Of a stretch of DNA of 64,000 nt, positions 2,024 to 49,433 are shown in pieces; the stretch's first letter is position 1, and each line of letters starts with the position of its first letter. This DNA comes from Arcobacter sp. (GTDB taxonomy: Bacteria > Campylobacterota > Campylobacteria > Campylobacterales > Arcobacteraceae), in NCBI GenBank assembly GCA_002869565.1, contig PKUJ01000011.1, positions 62,001 to 126,000 on the forward strand. Direction: 5' to 3'. The notes beneath the pieces were generated by a model. The model was not told where the DNA came from. It saw only the letters and a program-made list of their open reading frames with translations, and did not search any database. The translations under genes and the position numbers were made by a program.

Positions 2024-3106
2024 TTGATTTCATCTGCTTTAAAAGCATTAAAAGCGAACCGTTTAAAAACTACTTTAATATATTTAAGTCTAATATTTTC
2101 TATTACTTCAATATTTTTAATTTCTTCTATTTCAAATGGTATTATTAGTATGTATTCATCTATGTTAAAAAGTGATGGAGACATAATTATTACTCAAGCA
2201 AAAATATCTGATACATTTTTTTCAAATGTAGATATTAATTTAATTGAAAAAATCAATAAATTATCCAATATAAAAGACTCTTCAGCAATTATTGTAGGAG
2301 CTTCACCTGTTGAAAAGCTTCCAATTGTTGCAGTTTATGGAGTAACTAAAAATAGATTTACAAACTATAAACTAGTAAAAAATTCATACCCAAAAGAAAA
2401 TGAAGTATTAGTTGGACAATCAATTTATGAACAACTTGAAAATAAAAACTCTATTGAAATAGCAAATAAAACTTTTAAAATATCAGGAGTATTTGAAAGC
2501 TCAATTGGTTTTGAAAATGGTGGAGTTGTTTTAAATATAAAAGAAGCTGGTGAAATTTTTAATAAAAGTGCTTCTATGATTATGGTAAATAGCAAAATAG
2601 ACACAGATATTGAAAATCTAGTAAAAGAAATTAGCACTTTAAGCTCAAAAATAGAAGTAAAATCTACAGATAGTTTTGTTGATAACTATAACAAATTTAA
2701 AATTATTCAAACCTCATCAAATGCCATTTCTTTTATTGCTTTTGCCATGGGATTATTGGGAATTGTAAGTATCATGAGTATTACTATAAATCAAAGAAAA
2801 AGTGAATTTGGAATTAAAAGAGCTATTGGAATTCCAATGAAAAGAATAGTTTTTCAAATTATGAGTGAAAGTTTTATTCTTGGTTTCTTTTCTTTTATCT
2901 CTGCTTTTATTTTATCCCATGTGGTTTTATATTTTATAAAAAACTCATCACAACTTCAAGGTTATGTAAATGGAGAAATATCAACAAACTTAGCTATATA
3001 TGTTTTTCTAACTTCAATTGCAATGGCTATGTTAGGAGCTGTGATTCCAGCACTAAATGCAGCAAAAACTGACCCAGTTATTTTAATCCAAGGAAATAAA
3101 ATATGA
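2024..3106 (+). CDS. ABC transporter permease, FtsX/MacB/LolC type
   Basis: 360-residue permease with one N-terminal membrane helix, a periplasmic MacB-like domain (about residues 45-225) and three C-terminal helices carrying the FtsX signature (QRKSEFGIKRAIG followed by the closing helices and PALNAAKTDPV). Such proteins use a LolD-type ATPase to push lipoproteins, peptides or lipids through periplasmic conformational change rather than to carry solutes. The start is TTG, chosen because AAGGAAAAG precedes it at good spacing and no ATG lies before the first helix. It overlaps the ATPase gene by four bases and heads a nine-gene run. Confidence 0.88.
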   Translation: MISSALKALKANRLKTTLIYLSLIFSITSIFLISSISNGIISMYSSMLKSDGDIIITQAKISDTFFSNVDINLIEKINKLSNIKDSSAIIVGASPVEKLPIVAVYGVTKNRFTNYKLVKNSYPKENEVLVGQSIYEQLENKNSIEIANKTFKISGVFESSIGFENGGVVLNIKEAGEIFNKSASMIMVNSKIDTDIENLVKEISTLSSKIEVKSTDSFVDNYNKFKIIQTSSNAISFIAFAMGLLGIVSIMSITINQRKSEFGIKRAIGIPMKRIVFQIMSESFILGFFSFISAFILSHVVLYFIKNSSQLQGYVNGEISTNLAIYVFLTSIAMAMLGAVIPALNAAKTDPVILIQGNKI

Positions 3107-3723
3107 TAAAAGCACAAAATATATCACACTCTTATTCAAATGATATTGCTTTAAAAAATATTAACTTTGAGATTAAAAAAGGTGAATTTGTAGCAATCGT
3201 AGGTGAAAGTGGAAGTGGTAAATCAACTCTTCTTTCAATACTTTCAACTCTTTTAAAACCTACATCAGGAGAAGTTTATTTTGAAGATACAAATTTTAAA
3301 AATATAAAAGATATTGATAGTTTTAGACAAAAAAATATTGGTTTTATATTCCAATTTCATTATTTGATTAATTACTTAAATGTAAAAGAGAATATTCAAA
3401 TTGCAAATGAAAATGCAACAAAAGAGGAAATAGAAGAATTATTAGAACTTTTAGGAATAAAAAATATCATAGATAAATATCCAAATGAAATTTCAGGAGG
3501 GCAAAGACAAAGAGCTGCTATTGCAAGAGCTCTTATAAACAAGCCCAAAGTAATTTTTGCAGATGAACCAACAGGAAATTTAGATTCAATGAATTCTCAA
3601 AATGTATTTGAGATTCTAAAAAAACTATCAAATAAAGGAACAACTATAATAGTTGCAACACACGATTTGAACTTAGCTTCAAAAACAGATAAAACAATAG
3701 AGGTAAAAGATGGACAACTTTAA
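3103..3723 (+). CDS. ABC transporter ATPase, LolD/MacB type
   Basis: 206-residue ATPase with Walker A GESGSGKS (about residue 34), Q-loop FIFQFHYLI, signature SGGQRQRAAIARAL (about 134), Walker B VIFADEPTGNLD and switch His in VATHD. The LDSMNSQNVFEIL stretch is typical of the LolD/FtsE/MacB group. It partners the permease just upstream (ATGA overlap) and its 3' end overlaps the next gene by 14 bases, so translation of all three is probably coupled. The cargo is unknown; the neighbours suggest a role at the cytoplasmic membrane connected with a heme protein. Confidence 0.92.
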   Translation: MIKAQNISHSYSNDIALKNINFEIKKGEFVAIVGESGSGKSTLLSILSTLLKPTSGEVYFEDTNFKNIKDIDSFRQKNIGFIFQFHYLINYLNVKENIQIANENATKEEIEELLELLGIKNIIDKYPNEISGGQRQRAAIARALINKPKVIFADEPTGNLDSMNSQNVFEILKKLSNKGTTIIVATHDLNLASKTDKTIEVKDGQL

Positions 3724-5272
3724 TACTTTCATTGAGACACATTTTAAAATATCACTAATATTTTTTGGTGTAGGTTTAGTCTTTGGACTTTTTTATTCAA
3801 TAAATTTACTTGGATTCTCAATTGATTCCCAAACACTATTGCCAAGTAATTTAAGATCTATTCATATAAGTTTAATGCTTTATGGTTTTGTACCATTGAT
3901 GCTTTCATATTTACCTTTTTTACTAATAAAAAAGGAAGTTGGAGTTTCAAAAAAAGGACTATATTATTTAAATTTATATACTATTTTTTGGTATATTTTC
4001 TTAGTATTTATGACTAGCTCACTTCTTTTTGGAAATACAAGAGGTTTAGCATTTTATGATTTCCCTTATGAGTTAAATTTTATACTTGCCTTTGCAGGTC
4101 TTTTTTATATTATTGCTTTATATAACTTTATCAAAGAATATGACTTTCATCCAATGTGGGTAAGAGTATGTTTACGTGTGGTAATAATTGCACCTATTAC
4201 CCTCTTAATCTTAATGAATCCTATAATTGGGCAAGTTGAAAGTACCGTTACTGGTCCCCATGGAGATAATACCTTAGGAATGAGTTTAGCTCTTATTCCT
4301 CTATATTATTTAATCATCAAATTATTGAACAAAGAAGAGTTTATAGCAAGATGGAATATCCTATGGATTATTCCTACTCTTTTCTATTTTGCTTCTGTTT
4401 TATACAGAACTTTCTTTGAACCATTAACTTATAATCAAGAGTGGTTTTTACAATACCTTACATTTTTATATGTGCCTTTATTATATAGATGGTACAAAGA
4501 TTCAAATATTGAAAGTTTTGCAAAATTATCACTTCTTATATCAATACTTGCTTTTCTTTTTGTAGATATTCAGGGAAATATTCTTTTTATTCCTGAAATT
4601 AGGTGGGTATTTCATAGAAATGACTTAATAGTTGCCCATGCGCATGTAGCCATGGGAATAGGTGTACTATTTATGGTTTTATGTATGTTTACTTCATATA
4701 TTAGTGATCTTAAAAAAGTATCATTTTATTATCTTTATCTTTTAGGACTAATTGGTATTTTTGTAAGCCTAAGCCTTTCAGGTTTTGTTCAAGCGGGTAT
4801 TTTAAATATGAATATTACAACATTATGGATTTTAAGATCAATCTTTGGAGTAGTTGCAATATCAAGTTTAATCTTTTTTATTCAAAATAAATATACTCTA
4901 AGTGCTTTACAAAAATATAATCTTCTAGGTGTATTAAGTGATGGTTTTGGAGGAATTGGACTTATACTAATGGCAAGCTATATATATCCACTTGTTGGTT
5001 TTTCTTTTACTGGAACTTATGAATATATTGTATTTTCTTTTGTAAGTATGACAGGAATTCTACACTTTATGGCACTAAGATACAAAGAACATGAAACTAT
5101 TCTTACAAATATCACAGTTATTATAAGGGTTTTTGTAAGTTCTGTTTTCTTCGCTCTATTTATGGCTAAAACATTAGGATTAGAAGCCTTACTTATTAGT
5201 GCTTTTGATTTCTCATTTGTACTAGTTTATTTAATCTTTTTCTATCAAAAGGAGTCTTTATGCAAAAATTAA
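3710..5272 (+). CDS. Heme-copper-oxidase-like (CcoN-related) membrane protein, copper ligands apparently lost
   Basis: 520 residues and about 12-14 hydrophobic helices. Three places match CcoN/NorB-type subunit I: helix II with LRSIHISLMLYGF (His52), a helix VI-like GPHGDNTLGMSLALIPLYY (His184), and helix X with IVAHAHVAMGIG (His310, His312), equivalent to the GHVHSGALGW region that binds both hemes in CcoN. The adjacent His-His of helix VII that helps bind CuB is absent (the region reads YRTFFEPLT), and in my alignment the helix VI ligand position is occupied by Asp186 rather than His. It may thus be a heme b protein for electron transfer or sensing, not an oxygen reductase. No CcoO/CcoP-like subunit is next to it. 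Confidence 0.6.
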   Translation: MDNFNTFIETHFKISLIFFGVGLVFGLFYSINLLGFSIDSQTLLPSNLRSIHISLMLYGFVPLMLSYLPFLLIKKEVGVSKKGLYYLNLYTIFWYIFLVFMTSSLLFGNTRGLAFYDFPYELNFILAFAGLFYIIALYNFIKEYDFHPMWVRVCLRVVIIAPITLLILMNPIIGQVESTVTGPHGDNTLGMSLALIPLYYLIIKLLNKEEFIARWNILWIIPTLFYFASVLYRTFFEPLTYNQEWFLQYLTFLYVPLLYRWYKDSNIESFAKLSLLISILAFLFVDIQGNILFIPEIRWVFHRNDLIVAHAHVAMGIGVLFMVLCMFTSYISDLKKVSFYYLYLLGLIGIFVSLSLSGFVQAGILNMNITTLWILRSIFGVVAISSLIFFIQNKYTLSALQKYNLLGVLSDGFGGIGLILMASYIYPLVGFSFTGTYEYIVFSFVSMTGILHFMALRYKEHETILTNITVIIRVFVSSVFFALFMAKTLGLEALLISAFDFSFVLVYLIFFYQKESLCKN

Positions 5273-6255
5273 ATTTTTTAAAAATGTCACTTGGACAATT
5301 AGCTTTAATAATTTTTATATCTTCTGAATTATGTTACTACTTGCTAATTGCACAAACAGGGATTGTAGAATATTTTTCATCTGATATTTTTGCAATTGCA
5401 CCACTTCCAATTGGAGGAGTTATTGGTTCACTTTTAACTTATTTTCTAAAAGTTTCAAATAAAAATAAAATTAGACTTTTTTTAAGTTTACAACTAGGTA
5501 TGAGCTTTTTTTATCCAAACTTATCAAATATAATGCTTTTTCTTTTAGGAATAAGTGTTGGAGCACTAGCTCCACTTATAATAAATGAATTAAAAAAAGC
5601 CTCTCTTATAGACTTAGGATTTGCCCTTGCAATCTCTTATACTATTGGGACATATCTATTTAATTATGATGCTGCTTTAAGAGGTGGATTAGGTATAACT
5701 CTAACAATCATAACTATTATCTCTTCACAATTTTTATCAAAAATAAAAATAAATCAAGAAAGCAACCAAGAGTTTTCACTTTTTGTGATGGTTTTATGGA
5801 TATTTTTAGATGCAGCTTTATTTGAAACTCTATCAAGGGATAGTGTAATTTCTATTTGGAGAGATGGTTATAGTTTTGAAATTGCATTATTCCACATAAT
5901 TGGAGTTGTTGCTGCCTTAACATTCAGCATAAGAAAAAACCAAAAAGAGCTATTTATCATTATATTGTTTGCTCTTAGTTATCTATTTTATTTTTTACAA
6001 GAAGCATTTATTTTATCACTTATTTATCCATTTGTAATTTCATATTACAATGTAGCAATACTTCAAACTATTATAAAAAAGGATTTGAAAATTATTAGTA
6101 TTTACATGATTTTTATAGGCTGGATGGCATCTGGAGCAGGTTTATTTGTTGCTTTAGAGAATTTAATTATATTTGTTCCTAGTATCTTTTTATTAGGACT
6201 TATAAAAGTAATCAATACACAACAAACACAAAACAAGGAGTTAAACTATGCGTAA
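5260..6255 (+). CDS. Multi-pass membrane protein of unknown function (MFS-like topology)
   Basis: 331 residues, nearly all in about ten hydrophobic helices with short basic loops, and no motif I can name with certainty. Loosely MFS-like, with glycine-rich helices such as LLGISVGALAPL and GWMASGAGLF. It overlaps the CcoN-like gene by 13 bases and the YceI gene by 8 bases, so it belongs to the same transcript. AAAGGAG lies ahead of the ATG. A transporter or a membrane partner of the CcoN-like protein are both possible. Confidence 0.6.
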   Translation: MQKLNFLKMSLGQLALIIFISSELCYYLLIAQTGIVEYFSSDIFAIAPLPIGGVIGSLLTYFLKVSNKNKIRLFLSLQLGMSFFYPNLSNIMLFLLGISVGALAPLIINELKKASLIDLGFALAISYTIGTYLFNYDAALRGGLGITLTIITIISSQFLSKIKINQESNQEFSLFVMVLWIFLDAALFETLSRDSVISIWRDGYSFEIALFHIIGVVAALTFSIRKNQKELFIIILFALSYLFYFLQEAFILSLIYPFVISYYNVAILQTIIKKDLKIISIYMIFIGWMASGAGLFVALENLIIFVPSIFLLGLIKVINTQQTQNKELNYA

Positions 6256-6775
6256 ATTAATTTTAGTTGCTTTTCTAAGCATATTTTCTTTTGCAAACAA
6301 TTTAGTATTGCAAGAAGGTGAAATCGTTGCTCACACAGAGATATTTGGGGATAGTAAAATTGATCCAATGACAAAAGTTATAGATTCAAAAATTACTATG
6401 AATGAAAACATTGAATCTATTAAAGGTAATGTAACTATCAATTCTTTATCTCTTGTAAGTGATAATCTAGATAGAGATAAACATATGTATGAAGTGCTAA
6501 ATATTAAGGTTAATCCTACAATTAGTTTCGAATTTAAGTCAATTGAAAAAAATGATTTAGATTATAAAATTAATGGTTATCTAACACTAAATGGGGTAAA
6601 AAAAGAAATCTCTTCGATAACTACTATTGTTGATGATCAAAAGTTATTAAATCTTTCAGGAAATTTTTCTATAAAATTAACTGAATTTAATATGGAGCCA
6701 CCATCATTGTTGTTTCTAACAGTAAGAGACCAAATAGATATAAAATACAATCTATCATACACAAAAGGAAAATAA
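6248..6775 (+). CDS. YceI family periplasmic protein
   Basis: 175 residues starting with a classic signal peptide (cleavage probably after SFANN). The rest matches the YceI lipocalin-like beta barrel, which binds isoprenoid chains: paired strands such as KITMNENIESIKGNVTINSL, the conserved PTISFEFKSIEK and YKINGYLTLNGVKKEI segments, and a C-terminal DQIDIKYNLSY strand. The family binds polyisoprenoids or quinone-like lipids in the periplasm, which suits the neighbouring heme membrane protein. AAGGAG precedes the start. It overlaps the preceding gene, and the next gene starts directly after its stop. Confidence 0.82.
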   Translation: MRKLILVAFLSIFSFANNLVLQEGEIVAHTEIFGDSKIDPMTKVIDSKITMNENIESIKGNVTINSLSLVSDNLDRDKHMYEVLNIKVNPTISFEFKSIEKNDLDYKINGYLTLNGVKKEISSITTIVDDQKLLNLSGNFSIKLTEFNMEPPSLLFLTVRDQIDIKYNLSYTKGK

Positions 6776-7225
6776 ATGATTAAAAAAATCGCACTTCTAA
6801 TAGCCTTCGCAAGCTTATTATTTTCAAATAGTTTTAATGTAAATCAAAACATAAATAGCTTTTCATTAGCTGATCAATTTGACAAAATTCACACAGTTAA
6901 TGGTAATATAAAAACTATTGTCGTTTCATTTGAAAAGGGAACTGGAGCTGATATAAATGAGTTCTTAGATAAAAAACCTGCTGATTTTTTACAAAAAAAT
7001 AATGCCGTGTTTATTGCAAATATTTCAGGAATGCCATCTATTATTACAAAACTATTTGCTTTGCCTAAAATGAAAAAATATAAACACAATATATTACTTA
7101 TTTATGATGAAAAAGACACAAGATTTTTACAAAAAGAGGATAAATCTACTGTATACAAACTTGAAAATGGTGTTATTAAAAGTATCAATTATATAGAAAA
7201 AGAAGATTTAGAAAAAACTTTCTAA
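6776..7225 (+). CDS. Small exported protein, possibly thioredoxin-fold
   Basis: 149 residues with an N-terminal signal peptide (MIKKIALLIAFASLLFSNS). The mature part reads like a redoxin-type alpha/beta fold (FSLADQFDKIHTV near the start, NILLIYDEKDTRFLQKE towards the end), but it has no Cys pair and no recognised catalytic motif. It begins the base after the YceI stop codon. It may be a non-catalytic periplasmic partner of YceI; I cannot assign a function. Confidence 0.6.
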   Translation: MIKKIALLIAFASLLFSNSFNVNQNINSFSLADQFDKIHTVNGNIKTIVVSFEKGTGADINEFLDKKPADFLQKNNAVFIANISGMPSIITKLFALPKMKKYKHNILLIYDEKDTRFLQKEDKSTVYKLENGVIKSINYIEKEDLEKTF

Positions 7226-7227
7226 GA

Positions 7228-7965
7228 ATGAAATTAAATCTTCCTCAAACAGTTGAAGTATTTATTAACCATGTAAACTTGCATGGTTTAAGAATACTTC
7301 ATCTTAGTGATTTACATATAAATAAAAAAATTAAAGAAAAAACTCTCATTGAATTAATAAATACTTGTAATAATTTAGACTATGACTTTGCCGTTATTAC
7401 AGGTGATATTATTGATTGTAAAGTAAAATATATAAAAGAAAAACTTCATATTTTAAATACTTTATCTTCTAAAAAACCCGTCTATTATATTAGTGGGAAT
7501 CATGACCTTGTTTATGGTTTAGAAGAGTTAAAAAAAGAGCTTAGCAATTTTATCTTTATGGATAATATATCTAAAAATATAAATTTTAATAACAACAAAA
7601 TTTGTATTGTAGGTTTAGCAGATAGATTTTCTAAATTCTTTAAAATAAAAAGAGATGAAAAAAAAGTTTTTAATCTTCTAAAAGAGAATAAAGCTACAAT
7701 CTTTATTAGCCATCAACCAAAAGATTATAAACTTGCAGTTAATTCACAAACAGACCTATTTTTGTGTGGACACACTCACGGTGGGCAAATTTTTCCTTTT
7801 CATTTTTTTGTGAGATTGATTCAACCTTTTTTAGCAGGACTTTTTTATAAGAATAAAACTGCGATTTATGTAAATAGAGGTTTAGGAACTTGGGGTATTG
7901 ATTATAGATATAAAGCAGATAGTGAAATTACCATCTTAAAATTAATTTCAAAAAGTGTAGAATAA
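7228..7965 (+). CDS. Metallophosphoesterase (YaeI/LpxH-like calcineurin fold)
   Basis: 245 residues with the full set of calcineurin-type motifs: LHLSDLHI, TGDIID, SGNHD, FISHQP and CGHTHGGQIFPF, i.e. the DxH, GDxxD, GNH(D/E), and GHxH metal ligands. The family hydrolyses phosphodiester or pyrophosphate bonds, often in lipid precursors (UDP-diacylglucosamine or similar). The ATG follows the preceding stop by two bases, so it is co-transcribed. There is no signal peptide; a short hydrophobic N-terminal strand suggests peripheral membrane contact. The precise substrate is unknown. Confidence 0.85.
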   Translation: MKLNLPQTVEVFINHVNLHGLRILHLSDLHINKKIKEKTLIELINTCNNLDYDFAVITGDIIDCKVKYIKEKLHILNTLSSKKPVYYISGNHDLVYGLEELKKELSNFIFMDNISKNINFNNNKICIVGLADRFSKFFKIKRDEKKVFNLLKENKATIFISHQPKDYKLAVNSQTDLFLCGHTHGGQIFPFHFFVRLIQPFLAGLFYKNKTAIYVNRGLGTWGIDYRYKADSEITILKLISKSVE

Positions 7966-7979
7966 GACTGAGGTATAAA

Positions 7980-8648
7980 ATGAAAATTTTAATTATTGAA
8001 GATGATGAAAAAATTATTAACTTTTTGAAAAAAGGACTTGAAGAAGAATCATATACTGTTGATTATTCAAAAAATGGTGATGAAGGTCTATATTTAGCAA
8101 GTGTAAATACCTATGATTTAATTTTACTTGATATTATGATTCCAATTAAAGATGGCATTGAAGTTTGCAAAACACTCAGAGATTCTGATGTTCAAACTCC
8201 AATTATTATGCTTACTGCAAAAGATTCTATTGAAGATAAAATAAAAGGTTTAGATATTGGTGCCAATGACTATTTAGCAAAACCTTTTTCTTTTTCTGAA
8301 TTACTTGCAAGAATAAGAGTGCAATTAAGAACTAAAAGCACCTTTGAGACTACACTAAAACTAGGTGATTTAGAATTAGATTTATTAACAAAAACTGAAA
8401 AAAGAGCAAATGATACTATAACTTTAACTGCAAAAGAGTTTGCTATTTTAGAGTTTTTAATCAAAAATAAAAACAGGGTTTTATCAGAAACAGTTATCAT
8501 GGATTCTTTGAGTAATCTTGATGACTCAAATATGAGTAATATTGTAAATGTATATATTTATAGGCTCAGAAATAAAATAGATAAACCTTACGAAAAGAAA
8601 TTGATTAAGACAGTTAGAGGATTAGGATTTAAAATAAGTGATGACTAA
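7980..8648 (+). CDS. OmpR/PhoB-family response regulator
   Basis: 222 residues. Receiver domain at 1-115 with the acidic pair EDDEK, phospho-acceptor Asp in LILLDIMIP (about residue 51), the Thr of MLTAKD and Lys of YLAKPF. Winged-helix DNA-binding domain at about 125-220 (LTAKEFAILEFL and VNVYIYRLRNKID, ending KTVRGLGFKI). ATG preceded by GAGGTA. It overlaps the kinase gene downstream by several bases, the usual operon form of a two-component pair. It lies 14 bases after the phosphoesterase, so it may also be read from the long upstream operon and control it. Confidence 0.93.
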   Translation: MKILIIEDDEKIINFLKKGLEEESYTVDYSKNGDEGLYLASVNTYDLILLDIMIPIKDGIEVCKTLRDSDVQTPIIMLTAKDSIEDKIKGLDIGANDYLAKPFSFSELLARIRVQLRTKSTFETTLKLGDLELDLLTKTEKRANDTITLTAKEFAILEFLIKNKNRVLSETVIMDSLSNLDDSNMSNIVNVYIYRLRNKIDKPYEKKLIKTVRGLGFKISDD

Positions 8649-10014
8649 TTTATCAATAAAAAAGAAACTTGTAGCCTATGGCTTTACTATACAACTAATA
8701 ATACTAGTTATTCTCTCTTTTTCACTATATAAAGCATTAGAAATTTCTACAATAGATAAAATACAAACAACACTAAGAGTTATTACACTTGATATTGTTA
8801 ATGATATTTTAGAACATAAAAATAATTTGCTTACAAGAGATTTTCATGAAGAAAAAGAGTATAAATATGAACCTTTATACATTAGACTTTTAAGATTTGA
8901 TAAGGATTTTTCAGTAATAAAATCATCAAAGTTTCCTTCTTCTATAAAATTTAATATAGAATATTTGAAAAATTTAGAAAATAATGTTATCACTTTTGAA
9001 AAAAAAGAACCTTATATAATTAGTAGAATAAAAATTCATATTAACTCAGAAGACTATGTATTAGAAGTTGCTACAAATCATGTTTTGGTTGATTCAACTT
9101 TAGAAAATCTTTTATATATATTATTTTTAATTATTCCAATTATGCTTATTTTTTCTACTATTGGTGGTTATTTTTTAGTAAATGAATCTTTTGCTCCAGT
9201 TGAAAGAATTTTAAAAAATTTAAAAAAAATTAATGCATCAGATCTTTCAAAAAGATTGGATATTACAAACAATAATAATGATGAAATAGAATTACTTACA
9301 AAAGAGATAAATTCTCTGCTTACTAGGCTAGAAATCTCTTTTGATAAAATATCTCAATTTAGTAGTGATGCTTCCCATGAACTAAAAACTCCACTTACTA
9401 TAATAAGAGGAGAGATAGAGATTGCATTAAGAAAAGATAGGTCTATAGAAGAGTATAAAGATACTTTAGAGAGTTCTTTAGATGAAGTCTTACTTATTCA
9501 ACAAACAATTGATGATCTTCTTTTCCTCGCTAAATCAAAAGACAATTTAGAAGATATAGAAAAAGAGATTTATCTTGATGAAATAACCTACGAAGCAGGG
9601 AAAGAGCTAGAAAGATTTGCAAAAATCAAAAAAATAGATATAAAATATGATATTAGTGAAGCTCAACAAATTAGTGGTCATTCAAAACTTCTAAAAATTG
9701 CTTTAAAAAATATTATAAAAAATGCAATAAACTTTAGTCATGAAAACTCCTCAATATATTTAAAAAACTATTCAGATAAAGAATATTTTATAATTAGTGT
9801 AGAAGATAAAGGAATTGGTATTCCTAAAAAAGAGCAAGATAATATTTTTGAAAAATTTTATAGAACAGATAAAAGTAGAAATAAAGACTCTGGAGGAACG
9901 GGACTAGGAATGTCAATTTCGAAAAAAATTATTGATATGCATCATTCTGAAATTTCAATAGAAAGTACAGAAGATATAGGAACTACAATATTTTTTAAAT
10001 TTCCAAAAAATTAA
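8641..10014 (+). CDS. Two-component sensor histidine kinase
   Basis: 457 residues from this ATG; a GTG three bases earlier (8638) is an equally possible start. Two membrane helices (about 10-32 and 155-180) bracket a periplasmic sensor of some 120 residues. HAMP follows (about 185-235), then HisKA with SSDASHELKTPLTIIRGE (His near 245) and a HATPase with NAINFS, GIGIPKKEQDNIFEKFYR and SGGTGLGMSISKKI. Its start overlaps the end of the response-regulator gene, so it is the cognate kinase. The signal is unknown; the domain between the helices has no motif I recognise. Confidence 0.92.
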   Translation: MTNLSIKKKLVAYGFTIQLIILVILSFSLYKALEISTIDKIQTTLRVITLDIVNDILEHKNNLLTRDFHEEKEYKYEPLYIRLLRFDKDFSVIKSSKFPSSIKFNIEYLKNLENNVITFEKKEPYIISRIKIHINSEDYVLEVATNHVLVDSTLENLLYILFLIIPIMLIFSTIGGYFLVNESFAPVERILKNLKKINASDLSKRLDITNNNNDEIELLTKEINSLLTRLEISFDKISQFSSDASHELKTPLTIIRGEIEIALRKDRSIEEYKDTLESSLDEVLLIQQTIDDLLFLAKSKDNLEDIEKEIYLDEITYEAGKELERFAKIKKIDIKYDISEAQQISGHSKLLKIALKNIIKNAINFSHENSSIYLKNYSDKEYFIISVEDKGIGIPKKEQDNIFEKFYRTDKSRNKDSGGTGLGMSISKKIIDMHHSEISIESTEDIGTTIFFKFPKN

Positions 10015-48641: not shown

Positions 48642-49433
48642 ATGAGCCCAGAAAAAAAAGTTTTATTATTGTTTTTAGCCCTTATATGTCTTATGATTGC
48701 TTGTGTATATACCCACATTGATGAAATGATGCTGAATATAACAGATATTAATAAGCAAGAAAAAGTTGCTGAATCTACACAAGTGACAAAAATTGAAGAG
48801 GAAAAATCCTCAGGAGAAATAGAAGAAAAAGTTCTTCCTGAATCTAGTGATGAAGATATGTCTTCTCCTGAATTTAAATCTGAAGAGAGTATAAATGTTC
48901 TCGAAGATTCAGTTAAAGATGAATTAGAATCAACTGAAACTTTGAAAAAAGAAAAAGTAATTAATACTACAGTTGAAGAGCCTCTTCAACCCTTAATTAC
49001 AACAGATAAAAGATATACTAGAATTGGAAATGAAAAAAATATTGAAGAATTATCTACTGAATCACAACTTCTTCAAGTTAAAATAAATGATTATATAAGA
49101 GAAAACCCAATTGATTTTAGAAGAGCTAGTAATAAGATTACTAAAAGTAGTGTAAAAACTATTTTATATATGGTTGAAATACTAAAAGAATTTCCAAATA
49201 TTAAAATTGAACTTGCAGGACATACCGATGCTGCAGGGCCAGAAAAATTAAATCAAACGATATCATATCAAAGAGCAAAAAAAGTCAGTGATAGATTAAT
49301 CTATTTTGGGATTGATAAAAATAGAATTAAAGTACGTGGATATGGAGAAAATATTCCAATGGTTGAGAATAGCCCACAAGGGTATTCTCGAATAAATAGA
49401 AGAGTAGAATTTAATATAATAGAGGAAAAATAA
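48642..49433 (+). CDS. OmpA-family C-terminal domain membrane protein
   Basis: 263 residues. A single N-terminal membrane helix (VLLLFLALICLMIACVY) acts as anchor or uncleaved signal, followed by a highly acidic low-complexity linker (about 40-125, rich in Glu, Ser and Lys). An OmpA/MotB peptidoglycan-binding domain closes the protein: FPNIKIELAGHTDAAGPEKL, SYQRAKKVSDRLIYFGID and VRGYGENIP...NRRVEF. It likely ties the inner or outer membrane to peptidoglycan. One base separates it from the next gene. Confidence 0.88.
   Translation: MSPEKKVLLLFLALICLMIACVYTHIDEMMLNITDINKQEKVAESTQVTKIEEEKSSGEIEEKVLPESSDEDMSSPEFKSEESINVLEDSVKDELESTETLKKEKVINTTVEEPLQPLITTDKRYTRIGNEKNIEELSTESQLLQVKINDYIRENPIDFRRASNKITKSSVKTILYMVEILKEFPNIKIELAGHTDAAGPEKLNQTISYQRAKKVSDRLIYFGIDKNRIKVRGYGENIPMVENSPQGYSRINRRVEFNIIEEK

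Follow-up and report, generated by a model that had tools for sequence, protein, structure and literature searches.

A conserved gene module of Campylobacterota combining a CcoN-like protein, apparently without CuB ligands, with ABC transporter and YceI-family genes

The 64,000-nucleotide stretch of Arcobacter sp. analysed here (GenBank assembly GCA_002869565.1, contig PKUJ01000011.1, positions 62,001 to 126,000 of the forward strand; hereafter the window) contains, at positions 2024–7225, six forward-strand genes that an earlier note had put forward as a membrane system. The first two encode an FtsX/MacB-type ATP-binding cassette (ABC) permease of 360 amino acids (2024–3106; Pfam FtsX, 69.3 bits, and MacB_PCD, 51.6 bits) and a LolD/MacB-like ABC ATPase of 206 amino acids (3103–3723; ABC_tran, 134.6 bits). 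They are followed by genes for a CcoN-like protein of the heme-copper oxidase superfamily (3710–5272, 520 amino acids; COX1, 35.8 bits against a cut-off of 34.8), a multi-pass membrane protein (5260–6255, 331 amino acids), a predicted exported lipid-binding protein of the YceI family (6248–6775, 175 amino acids; YceI, 67.2 bits), and a small exported protein (6776–7225, 149 amino acids). These genes are packed head to tail as the earlier note described, with overlaps of 4, 14, 13, and 8 bases and an abutting last pair. Three more forward-strand genes follow: one encoding a calcineurin-type phosphoesterase (YaeI/LpxG-like; 7228–7965; Metallophos, 58.5 bits) starts 2 bases past the gene for the small exported protein, and, after the 14 bases already pointed out in the earlier note (7965 to 7980), come genes for an OmpR-family response regulator (7980–8648; Response_reg, 104.9 bits, and Trans_reg_C, 78.3 bits) and a sensor histidine kinase (8638–10014; HATPase_c, 90.5 bits, and HisKA, 51.7 bits), which overlap by 11 bases. 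Upstream of the permease gene, at 1944–1981 on the same strand, lies a candidate operator, ATGAA-N6-TTCAT-N6-TTCAT-N6-TTCAT, with agreement at 20/20 positions.

The conservation of this gene set was assessed in a sample made up of 52 fetched stretches, the best 80 of 105 CcoN-like relatives from a contig search, and the window; after a contig-end fragment of the CcoN-like gene (L062) and 20 duplicates by protein identity were dropped, 112 of 132 loci remained. From these distinct loci, a set of 75 was formed that had 5 kb or more of flanking sequence on each side and a CcoN-like protein of >480 amino acids; the window itself lies outside this set because its flank is 3.7 kb. As stretches were picked for the presence of the CcoN-like gene, all locus counts are conditional on that gene. 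The FtsX, ATPase, CcoN-like, and multi-pass genes were present in 75/75 loci and the YceI gene in 74/75, so that these five occurred together in 74 loci. Used as a query, the CcoN-like protein gave matches in 32 of 100 relatives and in 60 of 397 genomes sampled across the phylum Campylobacterota, and the multi-pass profile matched the identical 60 genomes, as a check of set identity confirmed. The gene for the small exported protein was found in 57/75 loci and was absent from Sulfurospirillum modules; its family occurred in 116 of the 397 genomes, some of them without the module. The co-occurrence that the earlier note had envisaged for six families in Campylobacterota was thus borne out for five, and the scattering of single genes that it had named as the contrary outcome was seen, through unlinked homologues, for the small exported protein alone, which is a frequent but detachable companion and not an obligate member.

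Three gene orders were observed: FtsX-ATPase-CcoN-multipass-YceI-small in Arcobacteraceae; small-FtsX-ATPase-CcoN-multipass-YceI in Sulfurimonas/Sulfuricurvum and others; and multipass-YceI-FtsX-ATPase-CcoN-small in families coded f6 and f4, including contigs with Sulfurovum titles. That the same genes stay together while their order is permuted gives good grounds to regard them as a working unit, and the existence of a conserved module is well supported. A locus that is affiliated by contig title only (Proteobacteria bacterium Glo_12; L169) carries the complete set of six in the second of these orders on a long branch, and for most of its larger flanking open reading frames the other stretches gave no match; a full set amid unmatched flanks suggests transfer as a block. 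The module may have left Campylobacterota by transfer, or it may have been more widely distributed in earlier times. Broken modules were found in two Sulfurospirillum-type genomes (L058 and L098), where the multi-pass frame is split (G079) or the CcoN-like frame broken into three (G431), and the module therefore appears to be dispensable in some niches. A plasmid search found no relative of the CcoN-like protein, and none of 21 pattern matches to it on viral contigs was confirmed.

The structure model of the CcoN-like protein, built from 23 aligned sequences (predicted local distance difference test, pLDDT, 85.1), matched the cbb3 oxidase subunit CcoN (3mk7) in Foldseek (E 4.4e-6), and comparison with VIA gave the cytochrome c-type nitric oxide reductase cNOR as the top match (3o0r, Z 26.9; 3.7 Å over 370 residues), next to cbb3 (3mk7, Z 26.0). 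The VIA matches spanned 361–387 residues at Z of about 26–27 within model residues 1–402 and covered the 12-helix subunit I fold, so that, as modelled, the protein has a heme-copper oxidase fold; some 120 extra C-terminal residues past about position 400 are modelled as further helices. Heme-copper oxidases have been characterised by a signature histidine sextet, which includes three His ligands of CuB/FeB (PMC3413370). H52, H310, and H312 were present in 112/112 distinct sequences and align with the low-spin and high-spin heme ligands of the CcoN, NorB, and aa3 proteins of the same genome, and H302-x-x-D305 matches H360/D363 of CcoN. For the metal site, the CcoN motif GHNAVG aligns to GDNTLG, so that the CuB histidine H230 corresponds to D186 (112/112), a result on which hhalign, MAFFT addition, and HMMER alignment agree; the helix VII His-His pair has no counterpart, residue 235 being Phe in 105/112 sequences and residue 236 a variable hydrophobic residue or Arg. 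The alignment to the NorB profile is unreliable in helices VI–VII, and the loss of metal ligands accordingly rests on CcoN and on the absence of any conserved His pair. By these alignments, the family retains three histidines of the signature sextet and lacks the other three, and we regard the CuB ligand loss as well supported. The description of this protein as a CcoN-like heme protein in the earlier note agrees with the invariant heme-ligand histidines and is refined here by the apparent absence of those of the CuB site.

Because the CuB/FeB histidines are gone, the protein should not be an ordinary oxidase or nitric oxide (NO) reductase. In addition to the lost ligands and the C-terminal helices, it differs from cbb3 CcoN in having no CcoO/CcoP partner, and the genome of the window also encodes a normal CcoN. 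Unlike NorB and other NO reductases, it has no FeB histidines, no NorB glutamate motif, and no NorC or cupredoxin subunit; the type described as gNOR has an Asp active-site residue together with a cupredoxin subunit (PMC8756737), and no Pfam domain of a heme c or cupredoxin partner subunit was found among the nine proteins encoded at 2024–10014. H184, D186, Y241, and E244 are also invariant (112/112), with Q248 in 111/112 sequences, and the four invariant residues might make up a site of another kind. An enzyme reducing NO, O2, or another small molecule at a metal site rebuilt by the high-spin heme from H184, D186, Y241, and E244 or Q248, with the remaining genes serving maturation or repair, would explain this invariance as well as the cNOR and cbb3 structural neighbours, and a precedent for an altered FeB site is provided by the putative NO dismutases, in which one histidine is replaced (PMC3413370). 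We nevertheless consider such an enzyme unlikely, since here all three CuB/FeB histidines and not just one are gone, the module encodes neither a cytochrome c nor a cupredoxin nor any other subunit II, and the module shows no positive association with NorB or NosZ. In 80 genomes that were hand-picked from those already searched and roughly family-matched, and hence non-random, cNOR-type NorB (with the NorB of the window's genome as query, E 1e-60) was found in 16/42 module-positive and 22/38 module-negative genomes (Fisher p 0.12), and NosZ in 15/42 and 20/38, respectively (Fisher p 0.18). Neither gene was enriched with the module in these genomes, and a link to NO or denitrification was dropped as unsupported; the suggestion in the earlier note of a role under low oxygen or NO gains nothing from these counts. 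In the window's genome, a canonical NorB is encoded next to a NorD-like VWA protein (L181), so that NO reduction does not need the CcoN-like protein of the module.

The ABC pair resembles MacB and LolCDE in combining an FtsX-type permease with a MacB core domain and a LolD/MacB-like ATPase, but falls below every curated cut-off for LolD, LolC/E, FtsE/FtsX, and MacB. The best NCBIfam model for the ATPase was LolD (219 bits against a cut-off of 307.75), and the permease scored 31.9 bits with LolC/E (cut-off 362.45). The earlier designation as an FtsX/LolD pair therefore stands at the level of Pfam domains and of the nearest model, but not as membership of LolCDE by curated cut-offs; since not one ATPase encoded in this genome scores as high as the LolD cut-off, that part of the test is weak here. 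The multi-pass protein had no significant Pfam or NCBIfam match, models of the major facilitator superfamily (MFS) included. Nearly all Foldseek rows for its structure model (pLDDT 91.9) were MFS proteins (best E 2.2e-4), and the best VIA match was EfpA (Z 25.1, 301 residues), so that, going by the model, it has the fold of an MFS transporter. No parts are more constant than the ABC pair and the MFS-fold protein (75/75), and a two-component system closes the operon in Arcobacteraceae, both of which fit a MacB/Lol-type exporter of lipids or lipoproteins whose CcoN-like protein would be a sensor of redox state or a structural part and would carry no electrons to a lipid. This seems rather unlikely, as the curated LolD and LolC/E cut-offs are unmet and as heme ligands that stay invariant down to the roughly 45 percent identity to which the CcoN-like family reaches argue for a working cytochrome.

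Profile matches of the YceI protein include E. coli YceI (1y0g, E 4.6e-17) and the polyisoprenoid-binding protein of C. jejuni (2fgs/5w2x), and the protein has a signal-peptide-like start as read from its sequence. To judge from PDB names, its relatives bind isoprenoids, and isoprenoid binding by YceI relatives has been described (PMC9113575). A second, stronger YceI match (163.6 bits) lies outside the module in the same genome (G000:C21:221085-221570; L184). The hydrolase beside the module is of one of two unrelated kinds: the calcineurin-type phosphoesterase in 48/75 loci and a NAPE-PLD-like hydrolase of the metallo-beta-lactamase fold in 20/75, with no locus having both (0/75). The phosphoesterase of the window scored 99.4 bits with YaeI and 94.9 bits with LpxG in NCBIfam, and the relation to NAPE-PLD, tested on one member (the L087 gene), gave 4qn9 at E 3.5e-33 over 229 residues; the likeness to these enzymes is below curated cut-offs where such exist. 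The labels of the two hydrolases on the tree of the 75 CcoN-like proteins imply at least two changes. The phosphoesterase would occupy what may be a lipid-hydrolase slot of the module.

The boxes of the candidate operator are spaced every 11 bases, with the first box inverted; OmpR-family regulators commonly bind direct repeats at 11-base spacing. The repeat was first spotted by eye in upstream regions and then counted in the same data, where, among the 103 of 112 distinct loci that could be examined, it was found (at least 18 of 20 positions) upstream of FtsX in 37, with one other such site in the 1,528,556 bases of those loci; it occurred in 32 of the 41 loci having both the phosphoesterase and the regulator. 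Because the motif was defined on the data in which it was counted, a genome-wide search is the fairer test, and this search found three sites with at most two mismatches in the window's genome, compared to one for a reversed-pattern control. The second-best of the three (one mismatch, G000:C21:61179-61216) lies just upstream of a gene encoding a cytochrome b561 (Pfam, 79.0 bits), and the sole other strong site among the examined loci (L099) is likewise located just upstream of a cytochrome b561 gene. The former gene, with its near-perfect copy of the repeat, is found just ahead of the window (L191:1587-2246, in G000:C21) and is likely to be a second target of the same regulator. In 6/112 distinct loci, a b561 gene comes immediately after that for the kinase (gap −7 to 16). 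The phosphoesterase and the two-component system belong with the module, as does the cytochrome b561 in some genomes, and the response regulator is predicted to bind the TTCAT repeats. By its scores, this regulator is nearest to the NCBIfam models for heavy-metal response regulators (247.2 bits, cut-off 279.2) and HprR (232.6 bits, cut-off 353). These scores, along with an MFS fold near drug exporters, would suit an efflux cluster against antibiotic, metal, or detergent stress under a copper- or peroxide-type (CusR/HprR-like) regulator, the redox part of which would repair damage to the envelope in the way that MsrPQ repairs envelope damage to proteins. Such a cluster appears quite improbable, as the regulator stays under the curated cut-offs and as the nine genes include none for a TolC-like outer-membrane protein or a periplasmic adaptor.

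The closest described system is from Burkholderia cenocepacia, where the YceI lipocalin BcnA and the cytochrome b561 LcoA have been reported to protect envelope lipids from peroxyl radicals; the two genes are cotranscribed, and sometimes fused in other bacteria, and the authors proposed that LcoA re-reduces a quinone held by BcnA (PMC9113575). The present module is similar in that an exported YceI protein is genetically linked to a predicted membrane heme-b protein; a b561, absent from most loci, is encoded in or beside the operon in some Arcobacteraceae. It differs in that its constant cytochrome would be derived from an oxidase and not from b561, in that it adds the ABC pair, the MFS-fold protein, and a phosphodiesterase of a lipid type, and in that its function is a prediction. 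The reading that we prefer, with a probability of roughly 0.4, is a two-component-controlled envelope module that couples the movement of lipids to a heme-b redox step, in analogy to BcnA-LcoA but with an oxidase-derived cytochrome added; this is consistent with the quinone- or lipid-linked redox or export module suggested in the earlier note, with the missing CuB site, the MFS fold, the hydrolase, and the regulators as refinements.

Under this reading, for which we infer the electron donor, the acceptor, the substrate, and the stress alike, the response regulator would act on the operon through the TTCAT repeats, and the CcoN-like protein would bind two b hemes and accept electrons from menaquinol. 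Without CuB, these electrons would pass not to O2 or NO but to a lipid-soluble acceptor, such as a quinone or an oxidised lipid on YceI. The MFS-fold protein and the FtsX/ATPase pair may shift this acceptor lipid inside the inner membrane or away from it, with YceI as its putative periplasmic carrier, and the phosphodiesterase may trim a phospholipid. Several observations weigh against the proposed coupling of redox, lipid, and regulatory parts: the stretches of the CcoN-like model nearest the ligands (177–181 and 304–308) have pLDDT <50; 7/75 loci have neither hydrolase, and the number of hydrolase changes on the tree is small; the NAPE-PLD-like gene is convergent in 17/20 loci and is therefore not in the module transcript there; the repeat is of the Arcobacteraceae type only and was seen neither in the Sulfurospirillum (g39) loci nor in those of the Sulfuricurvum type; and a b561 homologue was present anywhere in the stretch in a minority of distinct loci (12/112).

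A further-reaching and more doubtful proposal is that the CcoN-like proteins are a separate branch of the heme-copper oxidases that lost the O2-reducing metal site and is now the redox heart of a mobile, two-component-controlled system for lipid repair or transport, passing electrons from menaquinol to lipids or quinones held by YceI. In more general terms, the recurrence of the set in many Campylobacterota makes it probable that a well-known respiratory enzyme has taken on a different function in the envelope. If so, a respiratory scaffold has been turned to something besides the reduction of O2 or NO, with three heme histidines kept, three metal histidines dropped, and lipid-handling genes always beside it. 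The module also supplies a defined set of genes with which to study, in widespread environmental bacteria, the repair or reduction of lipids and quinones in the Gram-negative envelope apart from the respiratory chain. Apart from the small exported protein, every part of the module can be assigned to a family or fold already known, and no published description of the gene set, or of a CuB-less oxidase relative that keeps its hemes, was found in open-licence PMC papers.

The small exported protein had no sequence relative in Pfam, NCBIfam, PHROGs, or the PDB. A thioredoxin-like reading of it, which was an impression from sequence only, was rejected, as there was no database match and as 12 of 15 aligned members are cysteine-free, with one Cys in each of the other three. 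The window also carries a gene (29–1927) that in this genome alone separates the module from the cytochrome b561 gene and that encodes a membrane enzyme similar to LtaS or MdoB (Sulfatase, 143.5 bits); this gene was left out of the module because its family was seen in 0 of the 132 other sources scanned. At positions 48842–48909, the window also gave a match to the Rfam family SNORD36 right at threshold (30 bits, E 0.99), which in a bacterial host most likely arose by chance.

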